Assembly: GCF_030463535.1 (NCBI RefSeq)
Contig: NC_132892.1
Location: 33,658,932 to 33,722,931, forward strand
DNA from: Salminus brasiliensis
Lineage: Eukaryota > Chordata > Actinopteri > Characiformes > Bryconidae
DNA: 64,000 nt
Direction of reading: 5' to 3'
In this document: piece after piece, positions 1-55,326 of the stretch
Numbering within the stretch: position 1 is the stretch's first letter
Layout: every line of letters begins with the position of its first letter
Made by a program: the position numbers and the translations under genes
Notes under the pieces: model-generated
Seen by the model: only the letters and a program-made list of their open reading frames with translations
The model's database searches: none
Told to the model about the DNA's origin: nothing

Positions 1-640
1 GTGTTTATCTGGTAATTAATCAAATCTAAGTTTCAAAAGCTTTATTATGAAAATATATACTATTATTGACAATGTGTAATACTTCTCAAAAAATAAATAT
101 ATAATGAAAATGTTGATACACGTGTTTATTGATTTTGCAAATGTATGCAGTAGAAGAACATATATAAATATAAACATTTATAAAATTTTATTTATCAAAA
201 AGTGCTGTTTTTAAAACTACTACTCAATTATTATTCATAAATACCATAACTGACTTAGCTCTGACCATCAAGCTGAGAAAATAACACATCTATTTTTTTT
301 TTTACGATAAACACACTATAAGTCATACTGGAGAACATCTGCAGTGCAATGTAATATATTTATCAAAAAGTGCTGTTTTTAAACTTTTATAATTATTTAA
401 AAATACCTTACCTGATCATATATGCAATGACGTTTTTAGGGTTAGATGACTTACAACATTTCTGAAACTTTGTGTGAAAACTAATACATTTTACAGCAAC
501 CACCCCATATCATATTTACACTGTGAAAACTAATTCATACTACACTACTGCTTTTCCAGTGTGTGCTGCACTCTAGATGGCAGTAGAGATGTACTGGTTC
601 AGATCAATACACGAGTGACATCATTGTAATGGTGGGTTAC
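1..640. other. A-slot upstream flank, no gene
   Basis: AT-rich sequence without a supported gene. It is a diverged copy of the flank found upstream of the intact Ig genes. The parts with tttattgattttgcaaatgt and with the ctctagatggcagtagagat box have counterparts near 8345-10086. The similarity fades near 600, about 390 bp before a leader exon would be expected, and Tc1 sequence follows. The same stretch recurs at 40752-41390. Confidence 0.6.
571..590 (+). promoter_or_regulatory. CTCF-like box upstream of A1
   Basis: The sequence ctctagatggcagtagagat matches the vertebrate CTCF consensus CCASYAGRKGGCRSY at 13 of 15 positions by eye (AGATGGCAGT core). The same box lies about 420-450 bp upstream of every leader exon in the window. 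That it binds CTCF is inference. Confidence 0.35.
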
Positions 641-654
641 TACCTACCTAATAG

Positions 655-1372
655 GACTGAGATCAGAGCTTTGTAATGGCCACTCCAAAACATTTTCTTT
701 GTTATCCTTACGCCACTTTGTAACCTGTTTGGCAGTTTGCTTTGGGTCATTGTCCATTTGGAAGACCCATTTGAGCCCAATCTTTTACTTCCTGGCTGAT
801 GTCTTGAGATGTTGCTTCAGGATTTTCACATAATGTTCTTTCCTCATGATGCCATCTATTTTGTGAAGTGCACCAGTCCCTCCTGCAGCAAAACAACCCC
901 TCAACATGATGCTGCCACCCATGTTTCACAGTTGGGATGGTGTTCTCAGGCTTCCAAGTTCCCCTCTTTTTCCTCCAAACATAACAATGGTCATTATGGC
1001 CAAACAGTTAAATTTTAGTTTTGTCAGACCACAGGACATCTCTCCAAAAATTTATCTGGCTTTTTTTTGTTATTTCTTTTGGAGTAATGGCTTCTTCCTG
1101 GCAGAGTGGCCTTTCAGCCCATGTGGATACAGTCCTCGTTTCAATGTGGATAATGACCCACTCTTACCAGCTTCAGCCAGCATCTTCACAAGGTCTTTTG
1201 CTTTTGTTCTTGGACTGATAGGCTTATTTCAGACCAGAGCACATTCATCTCTGGGACACAGAACCTGTCTCCTTCCTGAGTGGTATGAAGGCTGGGCATT
1301 CCCATCTTGTTTGTACTTCTGTATAATTGTTTGTACAGATGAACGAGGCACCTTCAGTCAGTGAGGAATTTA
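655..1372 (-). mobile_element. Tc1/mariner transposase relic
   Basis: The minus strand reads as a broken Tc1-type transposase. From high to low coordinates it shows the LMWSDKTK-like region (around 1030), a GGSIMLRGCFAAGGTGALHK-like block (around 850-920), a [15 protein letters not shown]-like block holding the second catalytic Asp (around 740-780), and a [12 protein letters not shown]-like end near 665. The frame is interrupted and no terminal inverted repeats are evident, so it is a dead fragment. It occupies the place where the leader and Ig exons of the A slot should be. Plus-strand open frames here (for example 906-1364) are antisense shadows. Confidence 0.8.
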
Positions 1373-1483: not shown

Positions 1484-4263
1484 AGAAATCACAGCAACCA
1501 GTAACTTTATCCAATTCATCAATGTCAAACAAAACTTCACAGAAAACAAAAGCTATCACATCTTCAACATCTAAAACCATCACCAATGCATCACTTAGAA
1601 CAGAAACACCTACAGGTAAAACACACACTGCACAACTCCTGATACTCGGTAATTCAAGATCCAGGTATTCAGCTATGGCCATTTTATGCAGTTTACTACC
1701 AATAAAACCAACCACACCTCTATCCCTCCACCCATACAAGCTAAATTAATCACTTTAATTGAATTTCTCAATTTGAACCCATTAATTAAGCTTGTCCTCA
1801 TTTATTTGCTTTACAAACTATTTGCAAACTAAAGATGGGAATGTTCAGATCTAAAAGAAAATATACATGAAGCACATGCTTTTGTTAACAATACATACCA
1901 GGAAAAACTGTAATCTGTAATCTGTAAATTATACATTCATTACAGGACAAGATCAACCAGTAAGGTCATCAACCTCACCACCAAGAACCTCAAGTCCACT
2001 TAGCACAGAAGTCACCTCCTCCTCAACGTCTAAAAGTACAGTAACCTCTTCATTTAACTGACACTGAAAATGTTTTTTACAGTATATGGAATGGTAAATT
2101 AATATAACTCTTAATAATAATGTGCTACAAAGAGTTATTTAAGTAAGGCTACGAGGAACCATTTTTGTGAAAATGTATATGAAGAACCATAAAATTACAT
2201 TGGTTTCTTTAAACTTGTAAATGGTGCTCCATTCAGAAACAGTTCTTCACAGAATTAAAACTGGTTCTTCTACAGCATTACTCAAAGAATCCTTTGCATC
2301 ACCTTCATTCAAATCTACCATGTGTTTCCTTTAGCTCCAGATGTTCCTCCACAGTCCTCAACACCTATCAGTTTACAGACCACAAAAGCAATCACACTCT
2401 CAACTTCTAAAACCACAGTGTCTTCCTCCTCTGCTGCAGGTGATTATAGAGAATACACACAAACACACACACACACACCCACACACACACACACACACAC
2501 ACCTCAATGAATCAAAAAGGTGTCACTCTCATTGTCAGATACAATTCTGTATGTTCAGGGGTAGCACATCCAGCTTCCTCTGTGATCACCATCCTGGCTG
2601 TGATTCTGATGCTGGTTCTAATTGGACTCTTATTCTTCACAGTCACTCTCATAAAGAGAAGGAACACTCAAGGTACCACCAAACCTATAAACATAACAGA
2701 CACCCATGCATACTAGTTTACACACATGGCAGGGACAGTGGTGTTTCACTATATGCGTAGTGCTTAGAGCAATGGCTGCAGGTCAGAGGGCTGTGGGTTC
2801 AATACCCATGTCTGCTAAACTGCCACTGTTGGGCTCTTTAGCAAGGCTCTTATCCTCTTTGCTCCAGGGGTGCTGCAGCATGGTCAACCCTGAGCTCTAA
2901 GCTGTCTAGCTTGTCTAGTAGAGGAGATTTGCTGATAGAATTGGACTCTCTGAAGCAGATGAACATGAACCTACTGGCACAACGCCTAATGCCAGGTGTA
3001 GGCTACAGAGGTATAAAATCCCCTCAGCATTGAGCTGTAGAGATGGGGAATGATGGAGCTTCATTTAAATACTTTTGGGATGAGCTGGAGAGTTGCATTC
3101 AGCAAACAACGAATTAGGAGGTGTCCCAATACTTTTCACATAGTTCATATAGTGTATAATGACTGGCCCTAGTAGAGAAATACTACAATACTATATTAAA
3201 GTCCAAAAGTAGAAATACTGTTAGCATGTGTTTCCTCTGAGACACGTGATCATAGACTCACTGCTTATATGTCAATAACAAACAGTAGACTTTACTTGGG
3301 CCACCCTTGTCTACTGAATCTCCAAGATGTTTGCTCATGTTAGAAGCTTTAGCTGTTGGTGCAGAAAATAGTTCACTAGGCCTCAGTGGACAATGATGTA
3401 CATATGCTGCCACCTGCTGGCTGTACATGAAAAGGATAGCTAGAGTAAGACTAGACTGGGAACATGTTCTCAAATGAATCTCACAACCTGCTTATGTTTG
3501 AAGTCACTGATATTAATTAATTAATGTGATGTATAAATATGATATTAATGATGAGTGTTTTAATGTTAGGAAATTGTTTTTGCTTAGATCCAGCATCAAC
3601 CCAGGACCAATCCATCAGAGACTCTTTAAACAACTCCAAGGTGAGTCATGACCTGGAGTGGCTGACTTCACATGTATTGGAGCAGGCATGAGCTTGTCCA
3701 CACTTTCCTATTGTCAGGAGCAAAGAAAGTGATAGTGGAGTCCTAGTGAGTGGGAGGGTCTATTGGTTCAACTAAATTGGAGAGAAAATTGGGTTTAAAC
3801 AAAAACACTAGTAAAATGTTATATAATGAATACCAGTCTTGCTGAGACCACTTCAAACCTCTCTAACCGATTGATGATCCAAACAATGTGTTTATTGATT
3901 TTCTAAAACTTCTGTTCTCAGATTTCCCATACAGTCTGTGACTATGAGGAGATTAAAGACCCCAGATGTCTTCCTGCCTCAGAAACTGGAGTTTCCACTG
4001 TCTACTCTACTGTCCACCTGCCCACAGACCCCTTAAATACTACTCAAACTGTGTATGACAATGTTCAGCTGCCCACAAGCCCCTGTGATGTTTTAAATCC
4101 TGTTTATTCTACAGTGCCCCAGCATTCCTCAGTGAAATCTGCTGAAGATCCAGCTTACGCCACTGTCAATTTCTGCAAGAATGATGCTGTTACAACAGCA
4201 ATAACCAAAAAGGAGGACTCATGTGACTATGCTACTGTCAAACATGTTAGCGGAAGTGGCTAG
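1484..4263 (+). CDS. A1: headless stalk-TM-ITSM receptor cassette
   Basis: Six exons read as the C-terminal half of an Ig-superfamily receptor: 1484-1615, 1946-2035 and 2335-2439 (Ser/Thr-rich stalk), 2559-2672 (TM, VITILAVILMLVLIGLLFF then IKRR), 3588-3640, and 3922-4263 ending in TAG. Junctions are phase 1 until the fifth exon, which ends in phase 0. Joined length is about 278 residues. The last exon has six tyrosine motifs: CDYEEI, TVYSTV, TVYDNV, PVYSTV, PAYATV and CDYATV. TVYSTV and TVYDNV fit the ITSM TxYxxV, as in receptors that recruit SH2 phosphatases or adaptors. No leader or Ig exon lies upstream in this window. The second stalk exon uses a weak donor (gtacag), and read-through stops after FN. 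It may be a decapitated gene or an alternative 3' end for an upstream paralogue. Confidence 0.7.
2080..2300. repeat. Possible MITE-like intronic repeat
   Basis: This stretch has the style of fish short non-autonomous repeats (gaaccatttttgtg, gaagaaccataaaatt, gttcttcacagaa, ggttcttctacag). It lies between two stalk exons and recurs in A2 (25440-25660) and A3 (42880-43060). Family assignment was not possible. Confidence 0.3.
2455..2502. repeat. (CA)n microsatellite, A1
   Basis: An interrupted CA tract that begins about 15 bp after the donor of the third stalk exon, inside a 119-bp intron. It is longer and purer in A2 and A3. Confidence 0.95.
2731..2900 (+). mobile_element. tRNA-derived SINE relic
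   Basis: Matches the tRNA-headed SINE seen complete on the minus strand at 54718-55012: gcttagagc, gtgggttcaatacccatg (B box), ctaaactgccactgttgggc, then the ctctttgctccaggggtgc body. Diverged and truncated, in the intron after the A1 TM exon. Confidence 0.7.
2925..3156. mobile_element. Tc1/mariner-type MITE fragment
   Basis: Contains stretches I recognise from widespread fish non-autonomous Tc1/mariner elements (aacctactggcacaacgcct, tacttttgggatgagctgga) and ends in ggtgtcccaatactttt...atatagtgta, which resembles a TIR. The opposite TIR is missing. Confidence 0.6.
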
Positions 4264-14115: not shown

Positions 14116-14206
14116 TCAAACTGTATCAAATCTGAACACACACACACAGGCAAACAGCAAACAGCACATGTCTAATTATAATACAATTTATCTGGATGTT
14201 TTGCAG

Positions 14207-17028: not shown

Positions 17029-17048
17029 CTCTAGATGGCAGTAGAGAT
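17029..17048 (+). promoter_or_regulatory. CTCF-like box upstream of gene 2
   Basis: ctctagatggcagtagagat, 442 bp before the gene 2 ATG. Confidence 0.35.
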
Positions 17049-17080
17049 GAACTACTAAAAGAGGGAAGTTAAGCAGAGAA

Positions 17081-17470: not shown

Positions 17471-20400
17471 ATGACTGTGAAGATCCTCCTCTTTATCCCC
17501 TTCTATCTGATGTCAGGTAAGAAACTTCATATCTAAATAATTAGCTCAATCAGCATCAAATTAACATTTTACTTTTTATTTTACTAAAAGAGATATTTGG
17601 TCTCTTTTAGTAAGTGGAGGGGCCTCCAGGGAAGTGACAGGATATCCAGGAGGAGGAGTTCTCATCAAGTGTAAATATGAGAGAAGATACACATCAAATA
17701 AAAAGTACTTCTGTAAGAGTTCATGGACAAACTGTGCTGATCAGATCAAGACAGGAGTTAGTAATGAGAGGAAAAATACAGGAAGATTCTCACTGTTTGA
17801 TAACACCAGAGCTGCAGAGTTCTGGGTGTTGATCAGAGATCTCACTGTGGAGGACTCTGGAACGTACTGGTGTGCAGTTGATATTGAATGGAACAAAGAC
17901 CTCTACACACCAGTGGAACTGAAGATAAAGGAAGGTGAGTATCTCCCACCACTGCACATGTTCATTGTCCCAAACTTCCAGCATCATTAACACTGACTAT
18001 GCTGTTTGCAGATCTGATATATCTCTTATTTCCCTTTAGTTTCCCCAGACTTCAGATCTTATTAGCACTGTGTCTAGTTTTCATTACTAAAGTAAATGTT
18101 TATCTATTTTTAGAAACTCTGAACATCAGCTTCCCTTTCATAAATGTGTCAGCCACTAATGCACACCTATACACATGCTCCCTGCTTCTACCTTCTATTC
18201 TTCACAATGAGCTGAACATACTCTTGATGAAGGGTCTGACCTCCAGAGAAGTGACATTATATGAAACGGGAGGATTCATAACCAAAAGCAGATGTGACTG
18301 TTCTTTTAGGAGTGTTCTGACTTCTGAATAAACTATGTGGGGTAGTGTAAGCTTCATCATCTGACTGTTTATGATTGACAGATCTAGACCAAAAGAAGAG
18401 CATCACTGTGAATGGTCATGTAGGAGGAAGTGTGAACATCAGCTGCAAATACCCACAATCCTCCAGCAGTAAGCCCAAGTTTCTCTGCAGGAGAGTGGGC
18501 TCTGCTGACTGTAATTATAAAGCATCTGTTAAAGAGAACAGAAGATGGATAAAGGAGGGGAAATTCTCTCTGTATGATGACCGAGCACAGCAGACCTTCA
18601 CTGTGTCCATCGACAACCTGACCAATGAGGATTCTGGTGAATACTGGTGTGGAGCTGAATCAGACAGGAAATCTGATCATGGATACAAGGTTTATATCAC
18701 ACAGATCAAGCTCACAGTTACTGGTGAGTAGAGCTTGGTTTGATGATGGTTTATGCTTTCACACAGTTTCTATTGATTATGTTTATAATCTAGAGGAATC
18801 ATGTTGACTGCACTGTAAGTGATATTACGTCTGTCAATTACAAGAAAACTATAACGTCAGTGTACCACTATAGGGTAACTGGTAACATATTACTGGATAT
18901 GGATGCATTCAGCTCTGTGGCCTCTAGTTTTTCCAACGGGCAGTTTTTTTGTCTATAAATGGTTTACATGAGGGAGTGAATTAACACTCGATTACTGATT
19001 CATCTTTCTGGGGAGAATTTCTCTGAAATTTTCCCTGAAACTGTTTTGCTAGGTGGTTCCTATGATGTTGCTACATTATATTCCAAGTTGGTGCTATAGT
19101 GTTCCTGGGTAGTTGCTACAGTATTCCAAGTTGTTGCTGTTGTTGCTTAGTGGTTTCTAGGCTGTCGCTAGGTGGTTTCTATGCAGTTGCTATGGTATTC
19201 CAAGTCAATGCTATTGTGTTGCATTGCTGTGCAATGTAAAATGGCATTAATATAAAACTGGGTTCAACATTAAGTCAACATCTTTTGGTAATAAACTAAT
19301 CCACCTCTGAGAGATAATTTTGCTGGTGGTTGATTTTGTGTTGTATAGTGGTTCTTGTGGTATCCCAGGTGGTTGCAATGATGTTGCTAAGTGGTTGCTA
19401 GGGTGTTTCTAAATGGTTGCTAGGTAGTTGCTGTAATGTTCCTAGGTAGGTCATGTGGTGTACCAGGTCATTGCTATGGTGTTGCTAGGTGGTTGCTATG
19501 CTATTTTAGGTTGTTATCGTGATGCTGCTTTGTGGTTGCTAGAATGTGCTATGTAGTTGCTATGTGCCACCATATTAAACTGGACACCCTGCAAGCTAGT
19601 ATCACCTCCTGCAGGAGAAACATCACAGTGCAGGGAATTTTAAACATGCTACATGTCTACATGCTTTCTATAAATGGTTCACAAAAAAGGGGGGGGGGGG
19701 CAATAGAGCAGCAGGGCCCTCGAGAATACAGCTATTATAGCTGATGTTAAACCGTTAATTATATTTAGATTTTTTTATATTTTAACATTTATCTGCATTT
19801 CCATTCATGTGCTCCAAACCCAGCTGCTGTCTCCCACTCCACATTCTCTCCTTCATCAGTGCAGACACAATCCACACACCTACCTAATTTTTCAACTAAA
19901 GGTATGTGCTGTCTGTTAATCTCTGTCCTTACATGTGTGTCCGTCACAACATCCATCAGAAAATCCATACACTCTTCTCACTACTCATTCAGTCATCTTC
20001 TTAATTTGTATCATTGCTGTTCACAGAGTTTTAGCTTATATATATGCATCTTACAACCATCTCCAAGTATACAGGTTCATCCACACTTCTTCCCAAACAG
20101 CTCCCAGATCAGTGCATCCTGAACCCACACATCAACTAACTAGTAAGTCCTTCACTTTTTGAAAGCACATTAACACATATTTGTTGGTGCTAGAGTTCAC
20201 AGGGGAACTATACTAGCTTACATCCATGGGGAATTCATAAATGTCTGGCTTCTTCCTATCCACTATAACAAATACACATTTTTTAACCATTAAATATATA
20301 ATTGCTATATTAAGGCATTAGTGTTCGAGCCATATGGTACACAGCATCCCACAGGGGATAGGATTCATTATTTGTGTAGAGAGAAAAAGTGTCATTACTT

Positions 20401-22654
20401 TAATAGAGGAGGTAGATCTGCATTTAGTGAGGGAGGTGGGTGGGTTTTGCTTAGGGCCCCAGGAAAGCTAGGTTGTAGTGAAGCACAGGTTGTGGTGAAC
20501 TATAATAAGACAATACAATGATGTATTAATGATGGTATTTTCAAAAAAGACATACAGAGTGCATGAATGAGGTATGCATGAGTGTACATGTGGTAGTACA
20601 ACCTCATTTACAAGGGCATAGGTGGAGGCAATGTTGCAATGTTATAAACGTGGTATGTCACAGGAAGACAGAGACATTTTCATTTATAATAGATTTCAGA
20701 CTGCAATTTGATGTCACCTTTAGCCTTTATTAATAAATGTGGTAGCCAACACCCTCACAAAGTTGTTTTCTGTCAGTATGTTCCAGAGACAACAATTACA
20801 CAATTGTGATTATATTAGCAAACGGCATCAGTTTTCATCACTGCTTTCTGTTCTACTGCATGATAGAACATCTAAGCAAGTAAACAAGTAAACAAGGTTG
20901 TTTTGGTCACCTGATAAAATAACACACATGATGCTGCTGCATAGGAACAGACAGCAAACACATCCACAGCTTTGAGTTTTATTATTAACAGTATTGTTGA
21001 GGCACTACCAAATTCTTTGACTTGATGTAAAGTAGCTCCTAATGTCCACGTTTCTTTTACTGGCTACCTTCTTTACTGAGCATATCACCAAATTAGGCTA
21101 ATGACCACACACACACACACACAAACAAACATTTAGGGTTGTAACTACAATAACCTGTAATAGCCCACAGAATTCCTCATTTAAAAATAAATGCACTGTT
21201 CTTTACTGAACCGATACAAGGTGTGATATGTGAGCACACAGCTGCTGGAGAGTGAAATCCAGTTGACAGAGCTTTAATATCTCACAACTACAGCTTCTCA
21301 CACTTTAACAAGAAACAGCAAGACCATTCCTGTTAGTGATGAGTCAGAGAGGCGGGACTGTTAATCGTTTCTATAACAAATACATTGACTAGCCACTGAT
21401 GGGCTGATCTAATTATTTGACTAAACAGAACATAGGCCACCACTGCTCTGCTGTTGTCATGGTTTGGTGACCATTTAGCTCATGTTGCTATGCACTGTGG
21501 TTTGGTGAGTGTAAAGTATTTCCCTTTTCAGTCTGCAGAGTGCCTCTTTAATATTCCCACTAGAAGGCAAGTCTACTTGTTGACAGTGAGGGTTAAATTC
21601 TACTAAAATGTTCAAGACCTCCAATACAGAATTCCCTTTTAAATGATTGTGATCCAATTATTAAAACAAATAAATAAACAAACATGGACCAGCTTAAAAA
21701 ACTCCATGCCTTTTTTTTCTTTCTCTATATCATTGCTTCCTGTCTGCAGGCATTTATAATCCTTGCATGACCTTGAGCTCCAGAATTAAACAAAACAGTT
21801 TCTCTCTCTCTCGCTCTCTCTCTCTCTCGCTCTGTTATACTTCCTGGTGCATTATAATTATCTTGCACTTTAGTGTACACCGACATTACTTTACACCAAT
21901 TACAGCCAAAACATTTATTTAGATGATAAATTGTCACTGTTGATCTGAGCCATATTTCTAAAATCAACCACTAAATCATTGCAATAGGATGATGAAAAAA
22001 CTGTCGAATCTCTTTCTGTCAGATTGAATTTACTGGTCCAATCTCTAATATTTCTTTAGACCTTCTCATTTACATCACTGAAGGATTGGTCATCATGGTG
22101 ATCACTCTTCTGGTTGCAATGACAGCATTTTACAAGCACAAGAAGAATGCCAAAAAGTCAAAAGGTAACAAATCAGAACACACAAAAACACAAACAGCAT
22201 ATGCCTAATAATAATACAATTTATCTGGATGTTTTGCAGCCCCAGTTGAGATGACCCCTCTAAACATAATGCCAACCAACCCTAGAGGGGTAGGGGTCTT
22301 ATGATTAGTGCTACTTTATCTCCCTCTAGTGGACAGTACTGGGGACTAAATGTTGTAATGTATCTTTTCTCTTGCAGAACATTTCTAAATCCACTGAAAT
22401 CCCATCTGCAGTAAGTAGATATGATTTAGGAATGGATACAGTACAGATGGTAGTTTTACATATAGTTTTATTATATTGCCATTTTCTTCAATTATATCAT
22501 ACTGATTCAAGTTCTTCTTTAGGATGACTGCATCTACCAGGAGATCGATGAACAGCAGGGGCCTGCTATGGAGTCCACAGTCAACACAATCTACTCTACA
22601 GCTGAGGGACCCACTGATCCATCAGTCTATTCCACTATTGATGAATCTATCTGA
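17471..22654 (+). CDS. Gene 2: two-Ig pIgR/CD300-like receptor, ITIM-type (C)
   Basis: Exons: leader 17471-17516 (MTVKILLFIPFYLMS), D1 17611-17934, D2 18382-18723, stalk 19824-19901, probable second stalk 20101-20142, TM 22060-22164, tail 22240-22289, 22378-22410 and 22523-22654. About 383 residues. D1 and D2 are V-type with two Cys pairs each; D1 has TYWC, where other copies have TYQC. The TM reads LVIMVITLLVAMTAFY with no charged residue. Tail motifs are CIYQEI, TIYSTA and SVYSTI; the last is a canonical ITIM ([SIVL]xYxx[IVL]), which suggests SHP phosphatase recruitment and an inhibitory role. Compared with genes 3 and 5 there is one extra base near 22649 (tctatctgac for tctactgac). It ends the protein at ESI, about nine residues early but after the ITIM. 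It is the only Ig gene lacking the upstream GAAANNGAAA. Confidence 0.82.
19035..19565. repeat. GTTGCTA minisatellite, gene 2 intron
   Basis: Same degenerate array as in gene 1, between D2 and the stalk exon. Confidence 0.8.
21800..21833. repeat. (CT)n microsatellite, gene 2
   Basis: CT tract with CG interruptions, about 230 bp before the TM exon. Also at 38061-38096 and 62890-62923 in genes 3 and 5; not found in B' genes. Confidence 0.9.
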
Positions 22655-23159: not shown

Positions 23160-24287
23160 TAGGCAAAAAGGCTGGACTCAGGAATTGTTGAACTTCTCAA
23201 AGAGAAGCCTAATTAAGTTTTCATTTCTACCCTGTGTGCAATCTCAAAGCAAGTGAAATCCTGCCTTTGTTACCTTGTTGTTACTTTGATATCTAGCTAT
23301 GAGTTCAGTATTGTTGACCATTTGTGTTGCACATACATTATTGTAGAAGCACTGTACAGTTTATTTCATTGTTAAGCTAAAATGGAGTGAAATCTGGTGG
23401 GTTAGAAAAGAGCTGTTTTGAGTTGTCCAAGTTGAGTTGTCTGGAAAACACCTGATTAGATTCTACTTCGAGAGGTCAAACAAAATGCAGGCCCATTGTC
23501 TTATGTTTAAGCATAACGTCTTGTTAATTTGTGTTTGTTTAATTAATTTATTTGTGTGTTTACATAATCTCCTTACTTTGTGAAACATTTTGAAAGTTTT
23601 TTTTTTATAAATTGTGTTAATGCTGGAATTAATACAGTTTTAAGTTCTAAGTGGTCATTTTGATGCTGTTTGGTGTTGCTATAGTGCTGCTAGGCAGTAG
23701 CATTCTCATGTCCTTCAATTATGTGATATAGAAATATACTCCACTATCAATGAAACCACTGAATTAACCACATATTGCACCACCTTCCTTAGCAAAGCCT
23801 AAACAACTCACCCACCCTAATGGTTTCTCCACATTATCAGTAGAGCCTAATCCAGGGGTTATCCCAGGTAGGAGTCAACAACAACAACAACAACAACAAC
23901 AACCCAGTACCTGTGTCCTATGTTGAATTAGGAAACCTGATGAATACATAGCAATTTATGAAAGTAAACAAATCTGATATTTTAGAACTTCTGGTTCTAG
24001 TTCAAGTTTTACATTTCATATACTGGATACTGAGATCAAATAACATGTGAGCATGTTTGGCTACTCAAAATCCAGTCATCATTACTGCATGCTGTGTCAC
24101 CACAAGACATAATGAACCCAAGACTTAATGAATCTTTAATTGAAAGTCTGGATTGGACTTGTTACCTTGATATCTGGCTATTAGCTCAGACTTCTCGACT
24201 ACCTTTGTTATTCAAACATGATTTTGTTATCACTGAACAGTTTTTACTAGTTTTGGTTTTGATCATGAGGTGTTAGATTTTAAAGAA
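23160..24287. other. C to A intergenic region
   Basis: Paralogous 3' flank repeated twice: the block at 23206-23330 (aagcctaattaag...ttaccttgttgttac) is echoed in diverged form at 24090-24200. This means an extra gene slot once lay between C and A. It holds an (AAC)n tract (23878-23903) and a relic tail exon (23710-23860). No intact gene. Confidence 0.55.
23710..23860 (+). pseudogene. Relic tail exon of a lost paralogue (D)
   Basis: tccttcaattatgtgatatagaaatatactccactatcaatgaa... matches the last exon and start of the 3' UTR of C/B' genes: an IYSTINETTELTT-like reading, then ccttagcaaagcctaaacaa and actcacccaccctaatggtt. It lacks an acceptor and the DDCIYQ start. A second copy lies at 39970-40110. 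Confidence 0.55.
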
Positions 24288-24700
24288 GTTCCCCTCTTTT
24301 TCCTCCAAACATAACAATGGTCATTATGGCCAAACAGTTAAATTTTAGTTTTGTCAGACCACAGGACATCCCTCCAAAAAGTTATCTGGCTTTTTTTTGT
24401 TATTTCTTTTGGAGTAATGGCTTCTTCCTGGCAGAGTGGCCTTTCATCCCATGTGGATACAGTCCTCGTTTCAATGTGGATAATGACCCACTCTTACCAG
24501 CTTCAGCCAGCATCTTCACAAGGTCTTTTGCTTTTGTTCTTGGACTGATAGGCTTATTTCAGACCAAAGCACATTCATCTCTGGGACACAGAACCTGTCT
24601 CCTTCCTGAGTGGTATGAAGGCTGGACATTCCCATCTTGTTTGTACTTCTGTATAATTGTTTGTACAGATGAACGAGGCACCTTCAGTCAGTGAGGAATT
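24288..24700 (-). mobile_element. Tc1/mariner relic, truncated in unit 2
   Basis: Corresponds to 967-1372 and 41709-42115. The left side joins abruptly at aaagaa|gttcccctct; the sequence present at 40546-41708 in unit 3 is missing here, so this copy lost about 1.16 kb including the A-slot upstream flank and box. Confidence 0.8.
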
Positions 24701-24814: not shown

Positions 24815-25807
24815 AGAAATCACAGCAACCAGTAACTTTATCCAATTCATCAACGTCAAACAAAACTTCACAGAAAACAAAAGCTATCACATCTTCAACA
24901 TCTAAAACCATCACGAATGCATCACTTAGAACAGAAACACCTACAGGTAAAACACACACTGCACAACTCCTGATACTCGGTAATTCAAGATCCAGGCATT
25001 CAGCTATGGCCATTTTATGCAGTTTACTACCAATAAAACCAACCACACCTCTATCCCTCCATCCATACAAGCTAAATTAATCCCTGACAGAGGCAACTGC
25101 ACTTTAATTGCATTTCTCAGCAATTTGAACCCAGTAATTAAGCTTGTCCTCATTTATTTGCTTTACAAACTATTTGCCTCCACAAAACATCAAACTAAAG
25201 ATGGGAATGTTCAGATCTAAGAGAAAATATACATGAAGCACATGCTTTTGTTAACAATACATACCAGGAATAACTGTAATCTGTAATCTGTAAATTATAC
25301 ATTCATTACAGGACAAGATCAACCAGTAAGGTCATCAATCTCACCACAAAGAACCTCAAATCCACTTAGCACAGAAGTCACCTCCTCCTCAACGTCTAAA
25401 AGTACAGTAACCTCTTCATTTAACTGACACTGAAAATGTTTTTTATAGTATATAGAATGGTAAATTAATATAACTCTTAATGTGCTACAAAGAGTTATTT
25501 GAGTAAGGCTACGAGGAACCATTTTTGTGAAAATGTATATGAAGAACTATAAAATTACATTGGTTTCTTTAAACTTGTAAATGGTGCTCCATTCAGAAAC
25601 AGTTCTTCACAGAACTAAAACTGGTTCTTCTACAGCATTACTCAAAGAATCCTTTGCATTACCTTCATTCAAATATACCATGTGTTTCCTTTAGCTCCAG
25701 ATGTTCTTCCACAGTCCTCAACACCTATCAGTTTACCAACCACAAAACCAATAACACTCTCAACTTCTAAAACCACATTGTCTTCCTCCTCTGCTGCAGG
25801 TGATTAT

Positions 25808-25872
<65 letters not shown>

Positions 25873-27635
25873 CAATGAATCAAAAAGGTGTCACTCTCAT
25901 TGTCAGATACAATTCTGTATGTTCAGGGGTAGCACATCCAGCTTCCTCTGTGATCACCATCCTGGCTGTGATTCTGATGCTGGTTCTGATTGGACTCTTA
26001 TTCTTCACAGTCACTCTCAGAAAGAGAAGGAACACTCAAGGTACCACCAAACCTATAAACATAACAGACACACCCATGCATACTAGTTTACACACATGGC
26101 AGGGACAGTGGTGTTTCACTATATGCGTAGTGCTTAGAGCAATGGCTGCAGGTCAGAGGGCTGTGGGTTCAATACCCATGTCTGCTAAACTGCCACTGTT
26201 GGGCTCTTTAGCAAGGCTCTTATCCTCTTTGCTCCAGGGGTGCTGCAGCATGGTCACCCCTGAGCTCTAAGCTGTCTAGCTTGTCTAGTAGAGGAGATTT
26301 GCTGATAGAATTGGACTCTCTGAAGCAGATAAACATGAACCTACTGGCACAACGCCTAATGCCAGGTGTGGGCTACAGAGGTATAAAATCCCCTCAGCAT
26401 TGAGCTGTAGAGATGGGGAATGATGGAGCTTCATTTAAATACTTTTGGGATGAGCTGGAGAGTTGCATTCAGCAAACAACTAATTAGGAGGTGTCCCAAT
26501 ACTTTTCACATAGTTCATATAGTGTATAATGACTGGTCCTAGTAGAGAAATACTACAATACTACAGTAAAGTACAAAAGTAGAAATACTGTTAGCATGTG
26601 TTTCCTCTGAGACACGTGATCATAGACTCACTGCTTATATGGCTATGTCACTAACAAACAGTAGACTTTACTTGGGCCACCCTTGTCTGCTTAATCTTCA
26701 AGATGTTTGCTCATGTTAGAAGCTTTAGCTGTTGGTGCAGAAAATAGTTCACTAGGCCCCAGTGGACAATGATGTACATATGCTGCCACTTGCTGGCTGT
26801 ACATGAAAAGGATAGCTAGAGTAAGACCAGACTGGGAACATGTTCTCAAATTAATCTCACAACCTGCTTATTTCTTTTTGAAATCACTGATGTCATTAAT
26901 ATCATATTTATACATCACATACATCAGTGTTTTAATGTTAGGAAATTGTTTTTGCTTAGATCCAGCATCAACCCAGGACCAGTCCATCAGAGACTCTTTA
27001 AACAACTCCAAGGTGAGTCATGACCTGGAGTGGCTGACTTCACATGTATTGGAGGAGGCATGAGCTTGTCCACACTTTCCTATTGTCAGGAGCAAAGAAA
27101 GTGATAGTGGAGTCCTAGTGAGTGGGAGGGTTTATTGGTTCAACTAAATTGGAGAGAAAATTGGGTTTAAACAAAAACACTAGTAAAATGTTATATAATG
27201 AATACCAGTCTTGCTGAGACCACTTCAAACCTCTCTAACCGATTGATGATCCAAACAATGTGTTTATTGATTTTCTAAAACTTCTGTTCTCAGATTTCCC
27301 ATACAGTCTGTGACTATGAGGAGATTAAAGACCCCAGATGTCTTCCTGCCTCAGAAACTGGAGTTTCCACTGTCTACTCTACTGTCCACCTGCCCACAGA
27401 CCCCTTAAATACTACTCAAACTGTGTATGACCATGTTCAGCTGCCCACAAGCCCCTGTAATGTTTCAAATCCTGTTTATTCTACACTGCCCCAGCATTCC
27501 TCTGTGAAATCTGCTGAAGATCCAGCTTACGCCACTGTCAATTTCTGCAAGAATGATGCTGTTACAACAGCAACAACCAACAAGGAGGACTCATGTGACT
27601 ATGCTACTGTCAAACATGTTAGCGGAAGTGGCTAG
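24815..27635 (+). CDS. A2: headless stalk-TM-ITSM receptor cassette
   Basis: Exons 24815-24946, 25312-25401, 25695-25799 (Ser/Thr stalk), 25927-26040 (TM), 26960-27012, and 27294-27635 (tail, TAG). All six are open and in the same phases as A1. The juxtamembrane sequence is LRKRR instead of LIKRR. Tail motifs: CDYEEI, TVYSTV and TVYDHV (both TxYxxV), PVYSTL, PAYATV, CDYATV. No leader or Ig exon lies between the stop of gene 2 (22654) and this cassette. Gene 2 stalk donors are phase 1, as are the A2 acceptors, so skipping the gene 2 TM and tail would join the head of gene 2 to this tail in frame. Whether that happens needs transcript data. Confidence 0.7.
25813..25871. repeat. (CA)n microsatellite, A2
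   Basis: Pure CA tract, 13 bp after the donor of the third stalk exon. Confidence 0.95.
26101..26270 (+). mobile_element. tRNA-derived SINE relic, A2
   Basis: Duplicate of 2731-2900. Confidence 0.7.
26290..26526. mobile_element. Tc1/mariner-type MITE fragment, A2
   Basis: Duplicate of 2925-3156. Confidence 0.6.
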
Positions 27636-28916: not shown

Positions 28917-30707
28917 GATCAGACTGGGAAAGTTTATACCACACAGATCAAGCTCACAGTTACTGGTGAGTAGATCTTTCAGGATTCATTATTTGTGTGT
29001 AGAGAGAAAAGGTGTCATATTACTTATGTAGAGGAGGTAGATAGAGGTAGATATACCTAATAGAGGAGGTAGATTTGCATTTAGTGATGGAGGTGGGGCA
29101 GGTTTTGCTTATGGCCCCAGGAAAGCCAAGTTGTAGTGAAGCACAGGTTGTAGTGATCTATAATAAGACAAGATAAAGTAATAATGAAGGTATTTTTAAA
29201 AAAAGAGTGAATGAATGAGGTATGGGTGAGTGTAAATGTGGTGTCACGACTTCAAGGGCATAGGACTGGTGGGGACATTTAAGTTGTCCACAGGTAGCTG
29301 AGACATTTTCATTTATGATAGATTTCTGACTGCAATTTAATGTCACCTACAACCTTTATTTATAGCTATGGTGGCCAACACACTCGTACAGTTTTTGTTT
29401 CTGTCAGTATGTTTGTGAGACAACAATTACACAATTGTGATTATGTTAACATCACAGTTTTTATCACTGCTTTCTGTTCCGCTGCAGGATAAAACAGCTA
29501 AACAAGTCAATATTTAAATGAGGTTGTTTTTTTTCACTCGTTTCTATAACAAATACATTGACTAGCCCCTGCTGGCTGTTATTTCTTAATTAAAGTTACT
29601 GCAAGGGACCTTTCAGTAGTCACAGGATATTGGTATGGACATGTCCCTACTCAATTATATGACCTTGCTCATTCGTATCAGGTCAATCCAAGGACATAGC
29701 AAACTTAGCAAAGAATGATTCAACTAAACAGAACATAGGCCACCACTGCTCCTGTTGTCATGGTTTGGTGACCGTTTAGGCCGCGTTGCTATGCACTGTG
29801 GTTTGGTGAGTGTGAAGTATTTCCCTTTTCCATCTGCAGAGTGCCTCTTTAATAAGCTCACTAGAGGGCAAGTCTACTTTTTGCAACTGAGTGTTAAATT
29901 CTTTACTAAAATGTTCAAAATCAAAGGTCTTAGGTGATTTTTTTTTTACACTCATTGTTTGTGTGGTAATGTTTTGGCTGATCAGTGTGTATGTCAAGTG
30001 TAACTGAATTATATTTTTGACACAAGCATCTATATACAACAGACAGACTGCATTTAGAGAAATGTAATAATGTTTTATATTCTTATTAGCTGTTCTGGAG
30101 AGGAACATTTAGAAATTTCAGAGAATACCACACTGTATTCAAATATCCCTCTAGTGGATATAATGTAAAAACCTGTACATGTACAGAACCACACATACAT
30201 TCAAACTAAACTAAAGTCATGAAAGAGAACTCTGTTTATGCAAATCTTTGGACTTTAGTTGGATGAGAAATTGTCAGTGATAAATTGGACACTGAATCTG
30301 TAAATATAATACTGTAAAAAAAAATACTGTAAAACCTCTTTCTGTCAGATTGAGATTAATGGTCTAGTCTCTACATTTTCTTTAGACCTTCTCATTTACA
30401 TCACTGGAGGATTGGTCATCATGTTGATTGCTTATCTGGTTGCAAAAGCAGCACTTTACAAGCACAAGAAAGTGTATAATATAATACAATTTATCTGGAG
30501 GTGGGTGTCTTATGATCACTGCTACTTTATCTCCCTTTATCTCCCTCTATCTCCCTGTCCAAATCCCTGACTTTTCATTATTGCTATTTCCTTCATAGTG
30601 ATACTGATGCAAGTTCCTCCTTCGGATGACTGCATCTACCAGGGGATCGATGAACAACAGCAGGGGCCTACTGATTTAACCTTGTACTGCACTACTACCC
30701 TACCTTA
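28917..30707 (+). pseudogene. B2: decayed receptor gene
   Basis: Further decayed than B1. The D2 remnant (28917-28965) has an extra internal deletion. The TM exon starts at 30386 and reads LVIMLIAYLVAKAALYKHKK with the Lys of B' genes. A deletion then removes the old donor and first tail exon, and the frame runs on through intron sequence (VYNIIQFIWRW...) to a stop. The last tail exon relic ends at 30707 (DDCIYQGIDEQQQG). There is no head, so it is not expected to make a receptor. Confidence 0.75.
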
Positions 30708-33760: not shown

Positions 33761-36700
33761 ATGACTGTGAAGATCCTCCTCTTCTTCACATTCTATCTGA
33801 TGTCAGGTAAGAAATTTCATATCTAAATAATCAGCTCAATCAGCATCAAATGAACATTTTACTTAGATGGACATTTGGTCTATTTTAGTAGGTGGTGGGG
33901 CCTCCAGGGAAGTGGCAGGATATCCAGGAGGAGGAGTTCTCATCAAGTGTAAATATGAGAGAAGCTGCACATCAAACCCAAAATACTTCTGTAAGAGTTC
34001 ATGGACAACATGTGGTGATCAGATCAAGACAGGAGTTAGTAATGAGAGGAAAAATACAGGAAGATTCTCACTGTTTGATAACACCAGAGCTGCAGAGTTC
34101 TGGGTGTTGATCAGAGATCTCACTGTGGAGGACTCTGGAACGTACCAGTGTGCAGTTGATATTGAATGGAACAAAGACCTCTACACACCAGTGGAACTGA
34201 AGATAAAGGAAGGTGAGTATCTCCCACCACTGCACATGTTCATCGTCCCAAACTTCCAGCATCATTAACACTGACTATGCTGTTTGCAGATCTGATATAT
34301 CTCTTATTTCCCTTTAGTTTCCCCAGACTTCAGATCTTATTAGCACTGTGTCTAGTTTTCATTACTAAAGTAAATGTTTATCTATTTTTAGAGACTCTGA
34401 ACATCAGCTTCCCTTTCATAAATGTGTCAGCCAGTAATGCACACCTATACACATGCTCCCTGCTTCTACCTTCTATTCTTCACAATGATCTGAATATACT
34501 CTTGATGAAGGGTCTGACCTGCAGAGAAGTGACATTATATGAAACGGGAGGATTCATAACCAAAAGCAGATGTGACTGTTCTTTTAGGAGTGTTCTGACT
34601 TCTGAATAAACTATGTGGGGTAGTGTAAGCTTCATCATCTGACTGTTTATGATTGACAGATCTAGACCAAAAGAAGAGCATCACTGTGAATGGTCATGTA
34701 GGAGAAAGTGTGAGGGCCAGCTGCAAATACCCACGATCCTCTAGCAGTAAGCCCAGGTTTCTCTGCAGGAGAGTGGGCTCTGCTGACTGTAATTATAAAG
34801 CATCTGTTAAAGAGAGCAGAAGATGGATAAAGGAGGGGAAATTCTCGCTGTATGATGACCGAGCACAGCAGACCTTCACTGTGTCCATCGACAACCTGAC
34901 CAATGAGGATTCTGGTGAATACTGGTGTGGAGCTGAATCAGACTGGGAATCTGATCATGGCTACAAGGTTTATATCACACAGATCAAGCTCACAGTTACT
35001 GGTGAGTAGAGCTTGGTTTGATGATGGTTTATGCTTTCACACAGTTTCTATTGATTATGTTTATAATCTGGAGGAATCATGTTGACTGCACTGTAAGTGA
35101 GATTACGTCTGTCAATTACAAGGAAACTATAACGTCAGTGTACCACTATAGGGTAACTGGTAACATATTACTGGATATGGATGCATTCAGCTCCGTGGCC
35201 TCTAGTTTTTCCAATGGGCAGTTTTTTGTCTATAAATGGTTTACATGAGGGAGTGAATTAACACTCAATTACTGATTCAACTTTCTGGGGAGAAGTTCTC
35301 AGAAATTTTCCCTGAAACTGTTTTGCTAGGTGGTTCCTATGATGTTGTTACAATATATTTTAAGTTGGTGCTATAGTGTTCCTGGGTAGTTGCTACAGTA
35401 TTCCAAGTTGTTGCTGTTGTTGCTTAGTGGTTTCTAGGCTGTCGCTAGGTGGTTTCTATGCAGTTGCTATGGTATTCCAAGTCAATGCTATTGTGTTGCA
35501 TTGCTGTGCAATGTAAAATGGCATTGATATAAAACTGGGTTCAACATCTCAAGTCAACATCTTTTGGTAATAAACTAATCCACCTCTGAGAGATAATTTT
35601 GCTGGTGGTTGATTTTGTGTTGTATAGTGGTTCTTGTGGTATCCCAGGTGGTTGCAATGAAGTGGTTGCTAGGGTGTTTCTGTAATGTTCCTAGGTAGTT
35701 CATGTGGTGTACCAGGTCATTGCTATGGTGTTGCTAGGTGGTTGCTATGCTATTTTAGGTTGTTATCGTGATGCTGCTTTGTAGTTTGCTAGAATGTGCT
35801 ATGTAGTTGCTATGTGCCACCATATTAAACTGGACACCCTGCAAGCTAGTATCACCTCCTGCAGGAGAAACATCACAGTGCAGGGAGTTTTAAACATGCT
35901 ACATGTCTTCATGCTTTCTATAAATGGTTCATAAAAAAAGGGGGGGGGGGCAATAGAGCAGCAGGGCCCTCAAGAATACAGCTATTGAAGCTGATGGAAA
36001 ACCGATATTTTTTATATTTTTCTTGCTTAAAGTGGAACATTTATCTGCATTTCCATTCATGTGCTCCAAACCCAGCTGCTGTCCCCCACTCAACATTCTC
36101 TCCTTCATCAGTGCAGACACAACCCACACACCTACCTAATTTTTCAGCTATAGGTATGTGCTGTCTGTTAATCTCTGTCCTTACATGTGTGTCCATCACA
36201 TCATCCATCAGAAAATCCATACACTCTTCTCACTACTCATTCAGTCATCTTCTTAATTTGTATCATTGCTGTTCACAGAGTTTTAGCTTATATATATGCA
36301 TCTTACAACCATTTCTAAGTATACGGGTTCATCCACACTTCTTCCCAAACAGCTCCCAGATCAGTGCATCCTGAACCCACACATCAACTAACTAGTAAGT
36401 CCTTCACTTTTTGAAAGCACATAATCACATATTTGTTGGTGCTAGAGTTCACAGGGGAACTATACTAGCTTACATCCATGGGGAATTCATAAACGTCTGG
36501 CTTCTTCCTATCCACTATAACAAATATACATTTTTTAACCATTAAATATATAATTGCTATATTAAGGCATTAGTGTTCGAGCCATATGGTACACAGCATC
36601 CCACAGGGGATAGGATTCATTATTTGTGTAGAGAGAAAAAGTGTCATTACTTTAATAGAGGAGGTAGATCTGCATTTAGTGAGGGAGGTGGGTGGGTTTT

Positions 36701-40110: not shown

Positions 40111-41321
40111 CCAGGGGTTATCCCGGGTAGGAGTCAACAACAACAACAACAACAACAACAACCCAGTACCTGTGTCCTATGTTGAATTAGGAAACCTGAT
40201 GAATACATAGCAATTTATGAAAGTAAACAAATCTGATATTTTAGAACTTCTGGTTCTAGTTCAAGTTTTACATTTCATATACTGGATACTGAGATCAAAT
40301 AACATGTGAGCATGTTTGGCTACTCAAAATCCAGTCATCATTACTGCATGCTGTGTCACCACAAGACATAATGAACCCAAGACTTAATGAATCTTTAATT
40401 GAAAGTCTGGATTGGACTTGTTACCTTGATATCTGGCTATTAGCTCAGACTTCTCGACTACCTTTGTTATTCAAACATGATTTTGGAATCACTGAACAGT
40501 TTTTACTAGTTTTGGTTTTGATCATGAGGTGTTAGATTTTAAAGAAATGTTTAGAGAAATTAGCTGAATAAATTGAATCTGGTGAGATTGTGTTCAGAGT
40601 TATGAATGCAGGCCCAGAACATTTTCTTACGTTCACTGAAAGTGTACATTTCTTTTGATGGGTATCTGTGTCCTGTTCAATGTAATATTTTATTTTGTGC
40701 ATCATATTTTAATTCCTGTGAAACTAACATTGATAAAGTCTTTAATGAATTGTGTTTATCTGGTAATTAATCAAATCTAAGTTTCAAAAGCTTTATTATG
40801 AAAATATATACTATTATTGACAATGTGTAATACTTCTCAAAAAATAAATATATAATGAAAATGTTGATACACGTGTTTATTGATTTTGCAAATGTATGCA
40901 GTAGAAGAACATATATAAATATAAACATTTATAAAATTTTATTTATCAAAAAGTGCTGTTTTTAAAACTACTACTCAATTATTATTCATAAATACCATAA
41001 CTGACTTAGCTCTGACCATCAAGCTGAGAAAATAACACATCTATTTTTTTTTTTACGATAAACACACTATAAGTCATACTGGAGAACATCTGCAGTGCAA
41101 TGTAATATATTTATCAAAAAGTGCTGTTTTTAAACTTTTATAATTATTTAAAAATACCTTACCTGATCATATATGCAATGACGTTTTTAGGGTTAGATGA
41201 CTTACAACATTTCTGAAACTTTGTGTGAAAACTAATACATTTTACAGCAACCACCCCATATCATATTTACACTGAGAAAACTAATTCATACTACACTACT
41301 GCTTTTCCAGTGTGTGCTGCA

Positions 41322-41341
41322 CTCTAGATGGCAGTAGAGAT
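41322..41341 (+). promoter_or_regulatory. CTCF-like box upstream of A3
   Basis: Duplicate of 571-590. Confidence 0.35.
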
Positions 41342-41405
41342 GTACTGGTTCAGATCAATACACGAGTGACATCATTGTAATGGTGGGTTACTACCTACCT
41401 AATAG

Positions 41406-42123
41406 GACTGAGATCAGAGCTTTGTAATGGCCACTCCAAAACATTTTCTTTGTTATCCTTACGCCACTTTGTAACCTGTTTGGCAGTTTGCTTTGGGTCA
41501 TTGTCCATTTGGAAGACCCATTTGAGCCCAATCTTTTACTTCCTGGCTGATGTCTTGAGATGTTGCTTCAGGATTTTCACATAATGTTCTTTCCTCATGA
41601 TGCCATCTATTTTGTGAAGTGCACCAGTCCCTCCTGCAGCAAAACAACCCCTCAACATGATGCTGCCACCCATGTTTCACAGTTGGGATGGTGTTCTCAG
41701 GCTTCCAAGTTCCCCTCTTTTTCCTCCAAACATAACAATGGTCATTATGGCCAAACAGTTAAATTTTAGTTTTGTCAGACCACAGGACATCTCTCCAAAA
41801 ATTTATCTGGCTTTTTTTTGTTATTTCTTTTGGAGTAATGGCTTCTTCCTGGCAGAGTGGCCTTTCAGCCCATGTGGATACAGTCCTCGTTTCAATGTGG
41901 ATAATGACCCACTCTTACCAGCTTCAGCCAGCATCTTCACAAGGTCTTTTGCTTTTGTTCTTGGACTGATAGGCTTATTTCAGACCAAAGCACATTCATC
42001 TCTGGGACACAGAACCTGTCTCCTTCCTGAGTGGTATGAAGGCTGGACATTCCCATCTTGTTTGTACTTCTGTATAATTGTTTGTACAGATGAACGAGGC
42101 ACCTTCAGGCAGTGAGGAATTTA
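41406..42123 (-). mobile_element. Tc1/mariner transposase relic, unit 3
   Basis: Duplicate of 655-1372, with the same frame breaks, so the insertion and its decay predate the duplication of the large unit. Confidence 0.8.
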
Positions 42124-42235: not shown

Positions 42236-43226
42236 AGAAATCACAGCAACCAGTAACTTTATCCAATTCATCAACGTCAAACAAAACTTCACAGAAAACA
42301 AAAGCTATCACATCTTCAACATCTAAAACCATCACGAATGCATCACTTAGAACAGAAACACCTACAGGTAAAACACACACTGCACAACTCCTGATACTCG
42401 GTAATTCAAGATCCAGGTATTCAGCTATGGCCATTTTATGCAGTTTACTACCAATAAAACCAACCACACCTCTATCCCTCCATCCATACAAGCTAAATTA
42501 ATCCCTGACAGAGGCAACTGCACTTTAATTGCATTTCTCAGCAATTTGAACCCAGTAATTAAGCTTGTCCTCATTTATTTGCTTTACAAACTATTTGCCT
42601 CCAAAAAACATCAAACTAAAGATGGGAATGTTCAGATCTAAGAGAAAATATACATGAAGCACATGCTTTTGTTAACAATACATACCAGGAAAAACTGTAA
42701 TCTGTAAATTATACATTCATTACAGGACAAGATCAACCAGTAAGGTCATCAATCTCACCACCAAGAACCTCAAATCCACTTAGCACAGAAGTCACCTCCT
42801 CCTCAACGTCTAAAAGTACAGTAACCTCTTCATTTAACTGACACTGAAAATGTTTTTTATAGTATATAGAATGGTAAATTAATATAACTCTTAATGTGCT
42901 ACAAAGAGTTATTTGAGTAAGGCTACGAGGAACCATTTTTGTGAAAATGTATATGAAGAACCATAAAATTACATTGGTTTCTTTAAACTTGTAAATGGTG
43001 CTCCATTCAGAAACAGTTCTTCACAGAACTAAAACTGGTTCTTCTACAGCATTACTCAAAGAATCCTTTGCATTACCTTCATTCAAATATACCATGTGTT
43101 TCCTTTAGCTCCAGATGTTCTTCCACAGTCCTCAACACCTATCAGTTTACAGACCACAAAAGCAATAACACTCTCAACTTCTAAAACCACATTGTCTTCC
43201 TCCTCTGCTGCAGGTGATTATAGAGA

Positions 43227-43290
<64 letters not shown>

Positions 43291-44974
43291 CAATGAATCA
43301 AAAAGGGTCACTCTCATTGTCAGATACAATTCTGTATGTTCAGGGGTAGCACATCCAGCTTCCTCTGTGATCACCATCCTGGCTGTGATTCTGATGCTGG
43401 TTCTGATTGGACTCTTATTCTTCACAGTCACTCTCATAAAGAGAAGGAACACTCAAGGTACCACCAAACCTATAAACATAACAGACACACCCATGCATAC
43501 TAGTTTACACACATGGCAGGGACAGTGGTGTTTCACTATATGCGTAGTGCTTAGAGCAATGGCTGCAGGTCAGAGGGCTGTGGGTTCAATACCCATGTCT
43601 GCTAAACTGCCACTGTTGGGCTCTTTAGCAAGGCTCTTATCCTCTTTCTAGCTTGTCTAGTAGAGGAGATTTGCTGATAGAATTGGACTCTCTGAAGCAG
43701 ATAAACATGAACCTACTGGCACAATGCCTAATGCCAGGTGTGGGCTACAGAGGTATAAAATCCCCTCAGCATTGAGCTGTAGAGATGGGGAATGATGGAG
43801 CTTCATTTAAATACTTTTGGGATGAGCTGGAGAGTTGCATTCAGCAAACAACTAATTAGGAGGTGTCCCAATACTTTTCATACAGTTCATATAGTGTATA
43901 ATGACTGGCCCTAGTAGAGAAATACTACAATACTATATTAAAGTACAAAAGTAGAAATACTGTTAGCATGTGTTTCCTCTGAGACACGTGATCATAGACT
44001 CACTGCTTATATGGCTATGTCACTAACAAACAGTAGACTTTACTTGGGCCACCCTTGTCTGCTTAATCTTCAAGATGTTTGCTCATGTTAGAAGCTTTAG
44101 CTGTTGGTGCAGAAAATAGTTCACTAGGCCCCAGTGGACAATGATGTACATATGCTGCCACTTGCTGGCTGTACATGAAAAGGATAGCTAGAGTAAGACC
44201 AGACTGGGAACATGTTCTCAAATGAATCTCACAACCTGCTTATTTCTTTTTGAAATCACTGATGTCATTAATATCATATTTATACATCACATACATCAGT
44301 GTTTTAATGTTAGGAAATTGTTTTTGCTTAGATCCAGCATCAACCCAGGACCAGTCCATCAGAGACTCTTTAAACAACTCCAAGGTGAGTCATGACCTGG
44401 AGTGGCTGACTTCACATGTATTGGAGGAGGCATGAGCTTGTCCACACTTTCCTATTGTCAGGAGCAAAGAAAGTGATAGTGGAGTCCTAGTGAGTGGGAG
44501 GGTTTATTGGTTCAACTAAATTGGAGAGAAAATTTGGTTTAAACAAAAACACTAGTAAAATGTCCAAACCTCTCTAACCGATTGATGATCCAAACAATGT
44601 GTTTATTGATTTTCTAAAACTTCTGTTCTCAGATTTCCCATACAGTCTGTGACTATGAGGAGATTAAAGACCCCAGATGTCTTCCTGCCTCAGAAACTGG
44701 AGGTTCCACTGTCTACTCTACTGTCCACCTGCCCACAGACCCCTTAAATACTACTCAAACTGTGTATGACCATGTTCAGCTGCCCACAAGCCCCTGTAAT
44801 GTTTCAAATCCTGTTTATTCTACACTGCCCCAGCATTCCTCTGTGAAATCTGCTGAAGATCCAGCTTACGCCACTGTCAATTTCTGCAAGAATGATGCTG
44901 TTACAACAGCAACAACCAACAAGGAGGACTCATGTGACTATGCTACTGTCAAACATGTTAGCGGAAGTGGCTAG
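42236..44974 (+). CDS. A3: headless stalk-TM-ITSM receptor cassette
   Basis: Exons 42236-42367, 42726-42815, 43109-43213 (stalk), 43344-43457 (TM), 44332-44384, 44633-44974 (tail, TAG). All are open and phase-compatible. The tail motifs match A2 (TVYSTV, TVYDHV, PVYSTL, PAYATV, CDYATV). One Val just before the first ITSM is Gly here (TGGSTVYSTV), which does not touch the motif. The intron SINE is shortened (deletion near 43648). It follows gene 3 at 3.3 kb with no Ig exon between, so it is either a decapitated gene or an alternative end of gene 3. Confidence 0.7.
43229..43289. repeat. (CA)n microsatellite, A3
   Basis: The longest CA tract of the three A cassettes, directly after the stalk donor. 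Confidence 0.95.
43518..43650 (+). mobile_element. tRNA-derived SINE relic, A3
   Basis: Duplicate of 2731-2900 with its 3' part deleted. Confidence 0.65.
43660..43898. mobile_element. Tc1/mariner-type MITE fragment, A3
   Basis: Duplicate of 2925-3156. Confidence 0.6.
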
Positions 44975-55012: not shown

Positions 55013-55326
55013 GCAAGTAAACAAGTAAACAAGGTTGTTTTGGTCACCTGATAAAATAACACACCAATGCTGCTGCATAGGAACAGACAGCAAACACATC
55101 CACAGCTTTGAGTTTTATTATTAACAGTATTGTTTTCTTTAGACCTTCTCATTTACATCACTAGAGGGTTGGTCATCATGTTTATTGCTTATCTGGTTGC
55201 AAAAGCAGCACTTTACAAGCACAAGAAAGTCAAATGATCAAACTGTATCAAATCTGAACACACACACAGGCAAACAGCAAACAGCACATGTCTAATTATA
55301 ATACAATTTATCTGGATGTTTTGCAG

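Follow-up and report, generated by a model that had tools for sequence, protein, structure and literature searches.

The headless cassettes A1, A2 and A3 are probably 5'-truncated copies of a head-bearing type A receptor gene that were copied along a gene array and are drifting, with a possible fusion between A1 and C0, the C gene before it. The window (the whole 64,000-nucleotide stretch analysed here, C15:33658932-33722931 in its own genome) holds all three cassettes, which a first-pass annotation had read as an alternative 3' end for the upstream C genes. Head-bearing A genes elsewhere in the cluster and a head-removing lesion shared by A1-A3 speak against that reading. A designed alternative 3' end was rejected because head-bearing A genes exist and the lesion explains the missing head.

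Judged by domain and structure matches, the array is a pIgR/CD300-like receptor cluster of fish. Five head-bearing genes lie within the window (B1, C1, C2, B2 and C3). C1 (17471..22654, plus strand) is complete and open over nine exons: a leader (17471-17516), two V-type Ig exons, D1 (17611-17934) and D2 (18382-18723), two stalk exons (19860-19901 and 20101-20142), a transmembrane (TM) exon (22060-22164) and three tail exons (22240-22289, 22378-22410 and 22523-22654). C2 (33761..38916, plus strand) comprises leader 33761-33806, D1 33889-34212, D2 34660-35001, stalk 36112-36153 and 36353-36394, TM 38323-38427 and tail 38503-38552, 38641-38673 and 38786 onwards; C3 models like C1 and C2, and neither C2 nor C3 has a frame break over the part that was read. 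D1 and D2 of C1 match the Pfam V-set (E 5.6e-13 and 1.5e-12), and together they match polymeric Ig receptor structures in the PDB (E 1.2e-40) as well as CD300/CMRF35 structures. The C genes hence carry the V-type Ig domains of pIgR/CD300-like receptors, and the heads of A0 and F2, two A genes outside the window, are homologous to them. A literature search made without the species, and weak for that reason, found no published account of this cluster in the text available.

Several features of the C and B genes stand apart from the question of the cassettes. C2 and C3 have one base fewer just 5' of the position of the C1 stop (22649-22654), which alters the C-terminal end of the tail. D1 of C1 differs from D1 of C3 (58727-59050) at 34 of 321 sites, with introns differing by 1.6%, which, at the level of sequence comparison, suggests diversifying selection or gene conversion in this head exon. 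B1 (10489-14122) and B2 (51361-55244) have C-like heads and an in-frame stop directly after the TM (KHKKVK*), with Arg and Lys within or close to the TM; this arrangement suggests that the B genes, with their short tails, are partners of activating type for the C genes, which bear ITIMs. In the B2 leader, the start codon reads ACG.

The A2 cassette (24815..27635, plus strand) consists of three stalk exons (24815-24946, 25312-25401 and 25695-25799), a TM exon (25927-26040) and two tail exons (26960-27012 and 27294-27635, ending in the stop) that bear two TxYxxV motifs, which fit the ITSM consensus. A1 (1484..4263, plus strand; exons 1484-1615, 1946-2035, 2335-2439, 2559-2672, 3588-3640 and 3922-4263) and A3 (42236..44974, plus strand; exons 42236-42367, 42726-42815, 43109-43213, 43344-43457, 44332-44384 and 44633-44974) share its exon lengths of 132, 90, 105, 114, 53 and 342 bases. 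The three copies agree in all 10 internal splice dinucleotides and in the acceptor AG of exon 1; their exons contain no stops and no indels and diverge by at most about 2.5%. The frame decay expected of a gene remnant is absent from these remaining exons. The first-pass description of six open exons and two TxYxxV motifs in each copy is borne out; its statement that all joins are phase 1 holds for the earlier joins and fails at exon 5/6, where the 53-base exon 5 gives phase 0. The 113 residues encoded by the A2 tail exon include six tyrosines, every one within YxxV/I/L and two of them within TxYxxV; among 100,000 shuffles of this exon, six YxxV/I/L motifs occurred at a frequency of 2e-5 and two TxYxxV/I at 0.004. 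The A tail resembles the C tail (53% over 32 residues, E 2.6e-6). Searches of bacterial/archaeal and viral contigs for A-tail relatives gave 17 and 7 pattern matches, none of them confirmed.

The cassettes themselves encode no Ig domain that we could find. In the interval that separates the C tail from A exon 1, tblastn on both strands at E up to 0.5 found no match to D1 or D2, and a leader scan found no leader 5' of A1, A2 or A3; the scan recovered four of five known leaders, missing that of B2 with its ACG start. An in-frame TAA lies nine codons 5' of exon 1 in all three copies. On these three results a hidden leader or Ig exon 5' of the cassettes was rejected, and the earlier statement that none precedes them stands.

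Complete versions of the same gene lie nearby. A search of the same genome (18 matches) placed A-type relatives on both sides of the window, and in four of these, F1, F2, A0 and A4, the A stalk is preceded on its own strand by D1 and D2, the interval between them giving no match to the C stalk, TM or tail at E up to 0.01. Joining D2 to A exon 1 gives an unbroken frame, leader to stop, in both A0 (C15:33641253-33647150, plus strand; 516 codons with the stop) and F2 (C15:33625922-33619848, minus strand; 541 codons with the stop), and the next coding exon 5' of A exon 1 in each is the gene's own D2. They contain the same six cassette exons as A1-A3 (exon 1 being shorter and the tail exon longer in F2), and the A0 tail is 97% identical to that of A2; they differ in carrying the leader, D1 and D2 before exon 1, which A1-A3 are without. 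Because A0 and F2 have their own D2 in this position, A1-A3 amount to ordinary A genes minus leader and Ig exons, and intact paralogues holding the missing exons exist, as expected for gene remnants. The head is broken in F1, and A4 has an open head and a cassette that could not be cleanly modelled. Seven A cassettes were modelled, the 18 matches also containing other A-like fragments, and five of the seven were used for the substitution analysis with outgroups; F1 and A4, whose cassettes did not model cleanly, were dropped. Part of the cluster is inverted: within C15:33607-33632 kb (L010-L013), outside the window, F2 with its head and open frame lies on the minus strand, as do a broken A cassette and genes or gene fragments of B/C type.

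The lesion that accounts for the missing head lies between a residual 5' flank and A exon 1. Before A3, positions 40605..41346 (plus strand) retain the 5' flank of the former gene, in main blocks about 64-89% identical to, and collinear with, the 5' flanks of head-bearing genes (five of five); the comparison also gave weaker secondary matches that are out of order, and shuffled controls yielded no matches with E below 1e-4 in 100 comparisons. The last flank block of head-bearing genes ends 397-435 bp before the leader start, and the A3 flank ends at this same point. What follows (41347..42104, minus strand) is a scar insert containing Tc1-like transposase pieces in place of the leader, D1 and D2. 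Copies of this scar precede A1 (596..1353, minus strand; 99.7% identical to the A3 scar) and, as its right part, A2 (24286..24683, minus strand; 99.2%); A2 is without about 1.16 kb present at the A3 scar region, the residual flank included. Of three transposase pieces from the A1 copy, one matches HTH_Tnp_Tc3_2 above the Pfam cut-off (E 1.8e-9), one matches a Sleeping Beauty HTH below it (E 2.2e-6) and one has no match. The alignment of A3 with A0 breaks at 41221 and resumes at 42105, skipping the A0 leader and both Ig exons as well as most of the intron that follows, and that with F2 breaks at 41346 and also resumes at 42105, skipping the F2 head. A exon 1 appears normally to join its own D2. 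On this sequence comparison, the A cassettes sit where a whole gene once lay that has lost its leader, D1 and D2.

The scar insert occurs a fourth time 3' of C3 (L016, C15:33724543-33725298; 98.3%), where it is followed by a head (the A4 leader, at 33725990); by its position, this scar seems to have recombined onto another gene. Of the 5' flank blocks, the best kept (16985-17053, with copies lying some 400-435 bp 5' of every leader) is 78-89% identical to A3 and contains CTCTAGATGGCAGTAGAGATG, which may resemble a CTCF core.

The history that we propose would begin with an ancestral type A gene composed of a leader, two V-type Ig exons, three Ser/Thr-rich stalk exons, a TM exon and an ITSM tail. 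Comparison with A0 and F2 shows that a lesion common to A1-A3 removed the leader, D1 and D2 and left the transposase-bearing insert, probably in a single event because the three share the scar. The truncated A gene, together with the C gene preceding it, would then have been copied along the array, and the A exons would still be open mainly through the youth of these copies, under free drift. A2 and A3 would not be dedicated alternative 3' ends, although rare readthrough splicing of C1 or C2 heads onto them is mechanically possible. A second deletion took the C0 tail; there, the joined frame being open, A1 may supply the tail of a fused receptor that has a C head.

Each A cassette is followed by a second headless relic (5551-7487, 28917-30693 and 46265-47952). 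The one 3' of A2 (28917..30693, plus strand) retains the last part of a D2 exon (28917-28964), a B-type TM (30385-30471) and a tail exon (30625-30693) without an acceptor AG. All three B-type relics are damaged: two share a missing middle tail exon and a missing AG before the tail exon, and in the third the tail acceptor is deleted. With a D2 3' end beside a damaged B-type TM and tail, these relics imply that head loss occurred at least twice in the array, and they may be older.

No constraint was detected in the substitutions of the A exons. Exon and intron divergence are 2.51% and 2.54% for A1-A2, 2.03% and 2.49% for A1-A3, and 0.72% and 0.73% for A2-A3. The 22 variable exon sites among A1-A3 include 16 nonsynonymous changes by hand count (by script, 17 variable sites lie in amino-acid-changing codons, against a neutral simulation mean of 15.9), with omega 0.91 (95% CI 0.34-2.84). 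When A0 and F2 serve as outgroups, 6 synonymous and 19 nonsynonymous changes map to the headless clade, 3 of the 19 on its stem and so perhaps predating head loss; the A0 branch has 1 and 6, and the head-bearing pair A0-F2 has omega 1.18. Because head-bearing A genes give a like ratio, dN/dS has low power here and was set aside as a discriminator: the check that the first-pass annotation had proposed, run on paralogues, returned values near 1 and could not separate headless from head-bearing genes. Indels are absent from 836 exon columns versus 14 non-repeat indels (33 in all) in 4398 noncoding columns, a shortage with P 0.07 for non-repeat indels and 0.002 with repeats included, and simulated neutral change produced no stop in 46% of runs. 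The open state of A1-A3 is mildly unexpected under neutrality, and the indel shortage, the lack of stops and the damage in B-type relics versus three open A cassettes give a mild hint of frame constraint, no more. The open frames require no alternative-3'-end function, and from their sequence A1-A3 look chiefly like young gene remnants.

Use of an A tail by a C head is most credible at C0-A1, where the C tail is gone, and would there be a fusion rather than a single head with a choice of tails. C0 lies just beyond the window edge, and the A1 cassette provides the next exons found 3' of its tail-less head. The match of C0 to C1 breaks off at 22149, close to where the TM exon ends, and picks up again at 23360, so that 1210 bases are absent, among them the end of the TM exon with its donor, three tail exons, the stop and the AATAAA (at 23150 in C1). 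This deletion is a new finding, beyond the earlier note. Every C0 exon from the leader through D1 and D2 to the second stalk exon is open, and when these exons are joined on paper to A1 at the second stalk donor, the frame stays open to the A1 stop; C0 has thus lost its own 3' end, and the joined frame is open, as in a fusion gene. Internal exons without a donor are usually skipped, which makes splicing from C0 to A1 a plausible default on present gene models. A working receptor in which the C0 head skips the donor-less TM exon and splices to the A1 stalk, TM and ITSM tail is a tentative reading with somewhat less than an even chance; human FCGR2C, a head/tail recombinant receptor gene, lends it a precedent (PMC6786274, from the portion available). 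Against it, AATAAA at C15:33658747 and 33659023 could end the C0 message first, the C0 TM exon read onward gives a short tail and then a stop, and C0 may simply be dead.

For C1 and C2, a regulated choice between splicing the head to its own ITIM tail and splicing it to the stalk and ITSM tail of A2 or A3 is, on the gene models, very unlikely. Donors in the C heads are phase 1 and suit A exon 1, so that one head could be joined in phase to the C tail or to the A tail; C1 reads through to its stop without a break, C2 and C3 are open over the part read, and the A exons are open in three of three copies, without indels. Phase-1 exons are the rule in Ig-superfamily genes, and for this reason the match between C and A is expected anyway. 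The own D2 before exon 1 in A0 and F2 weighs against this splicing, as does the lack of detected substitution constraint in the A exons; C1, moreover, retains its terminal exon and the AATAAA at 23150, so a C1-A2 message needs readthrough. Splicing of C1 to A2 or of C2 to A3 is possible on the sequence. The proposal that a C head could splice in frame to the A exons therefore keeps its fitting phases at C1 and its open frame at C0-A1; the supposed distance of about 5-6 kb measured 4.7-7.2 kb, depending on the donor, and the upstream C gene has an ITIM tail of its own at C1, with its terminal tail exon, but not at C0 before A1. A graded tail-swap array, in which C1-A2 and C2-A3 would be two-tailed by readthrough and the swap would be fixed by deletion at C0-A1, so that the same head type has an ITIM at some loci and an ITSM at another, is still a little less probable. 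Expression of the A cassettes alone, as a headless membrane adaptor, is the least likely of these readings and would be very surprising: the TM is open, the tail is tyrosine-rich and A3 (and A1, by near identity there) retains part of the former gene's 5' flank, yet no leader was found, the in-frame stop lies nine codons before exon 1, A2 has no residual 5' flank, and an in-frame ATG before the TM is present in A1 and absent from A2 and A3. The truncated-copy reading remains the one that we prefer.

Clustered immune receptors evolve by head/tail recombination, of which intermediates are seldom seen. At this one locus, A0 is still an open A gene, A1-A3 stand next to C genes with their heads deleted, and C0, which has lost its tail, adjoins the headless A1, making it testable in one animal whether a neighbour pair made by deletion becomes a fused receptor.

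These arrangements have relatives among known receptors. The C heads are like teleost pIgR/CD300-like (CMRF35-like) receptors in having two V-type domains that match pIgR and CD300/CMRF35. Carp SITR has two Ig domains, the C-proximal one CD300-like, according to the part available of the report (PMC3031540); it is soluble, and the C and A genes differ from it by a TM and tails with tyrosine motifs. In the available portions of the respective papers, ITIM and hemITAM are swapped by splicing at some Botryllus FcoR loci (PMC12065747), isoforms of human NKp30 differ in the tail (PMC6514059), and splicing has cost two paralogues of horse CEACAM1 their inhibitory motifs (PMC5856374). Because such designs are in print, one head with two tails would not be a new principle; the Botryllus and NKp30 examples also lend some plausibility to two tails at C1 and C2. 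As far as these accounts go, Botryllus FcoR and NKp30 pair one ectodomain with alternative signalling tails, as proposed for C-A, but their transcripts are reported and their tails lie within one gene, whereas the predicted C-A message would span two genes. Readthrough fusions of neighbouring genes are estimated, in the text available, to involve 4-6% of all genes (PMC3041646). By the accessible account (PMC6786274), human FCGR2C joins the head of one receptor to its neighbour's tail, as C0-A1 would; FCGR2C arose by unequal crossover and is one finished gene, whereas C0-A1 reflects two deletions and its joining would be by splicing.
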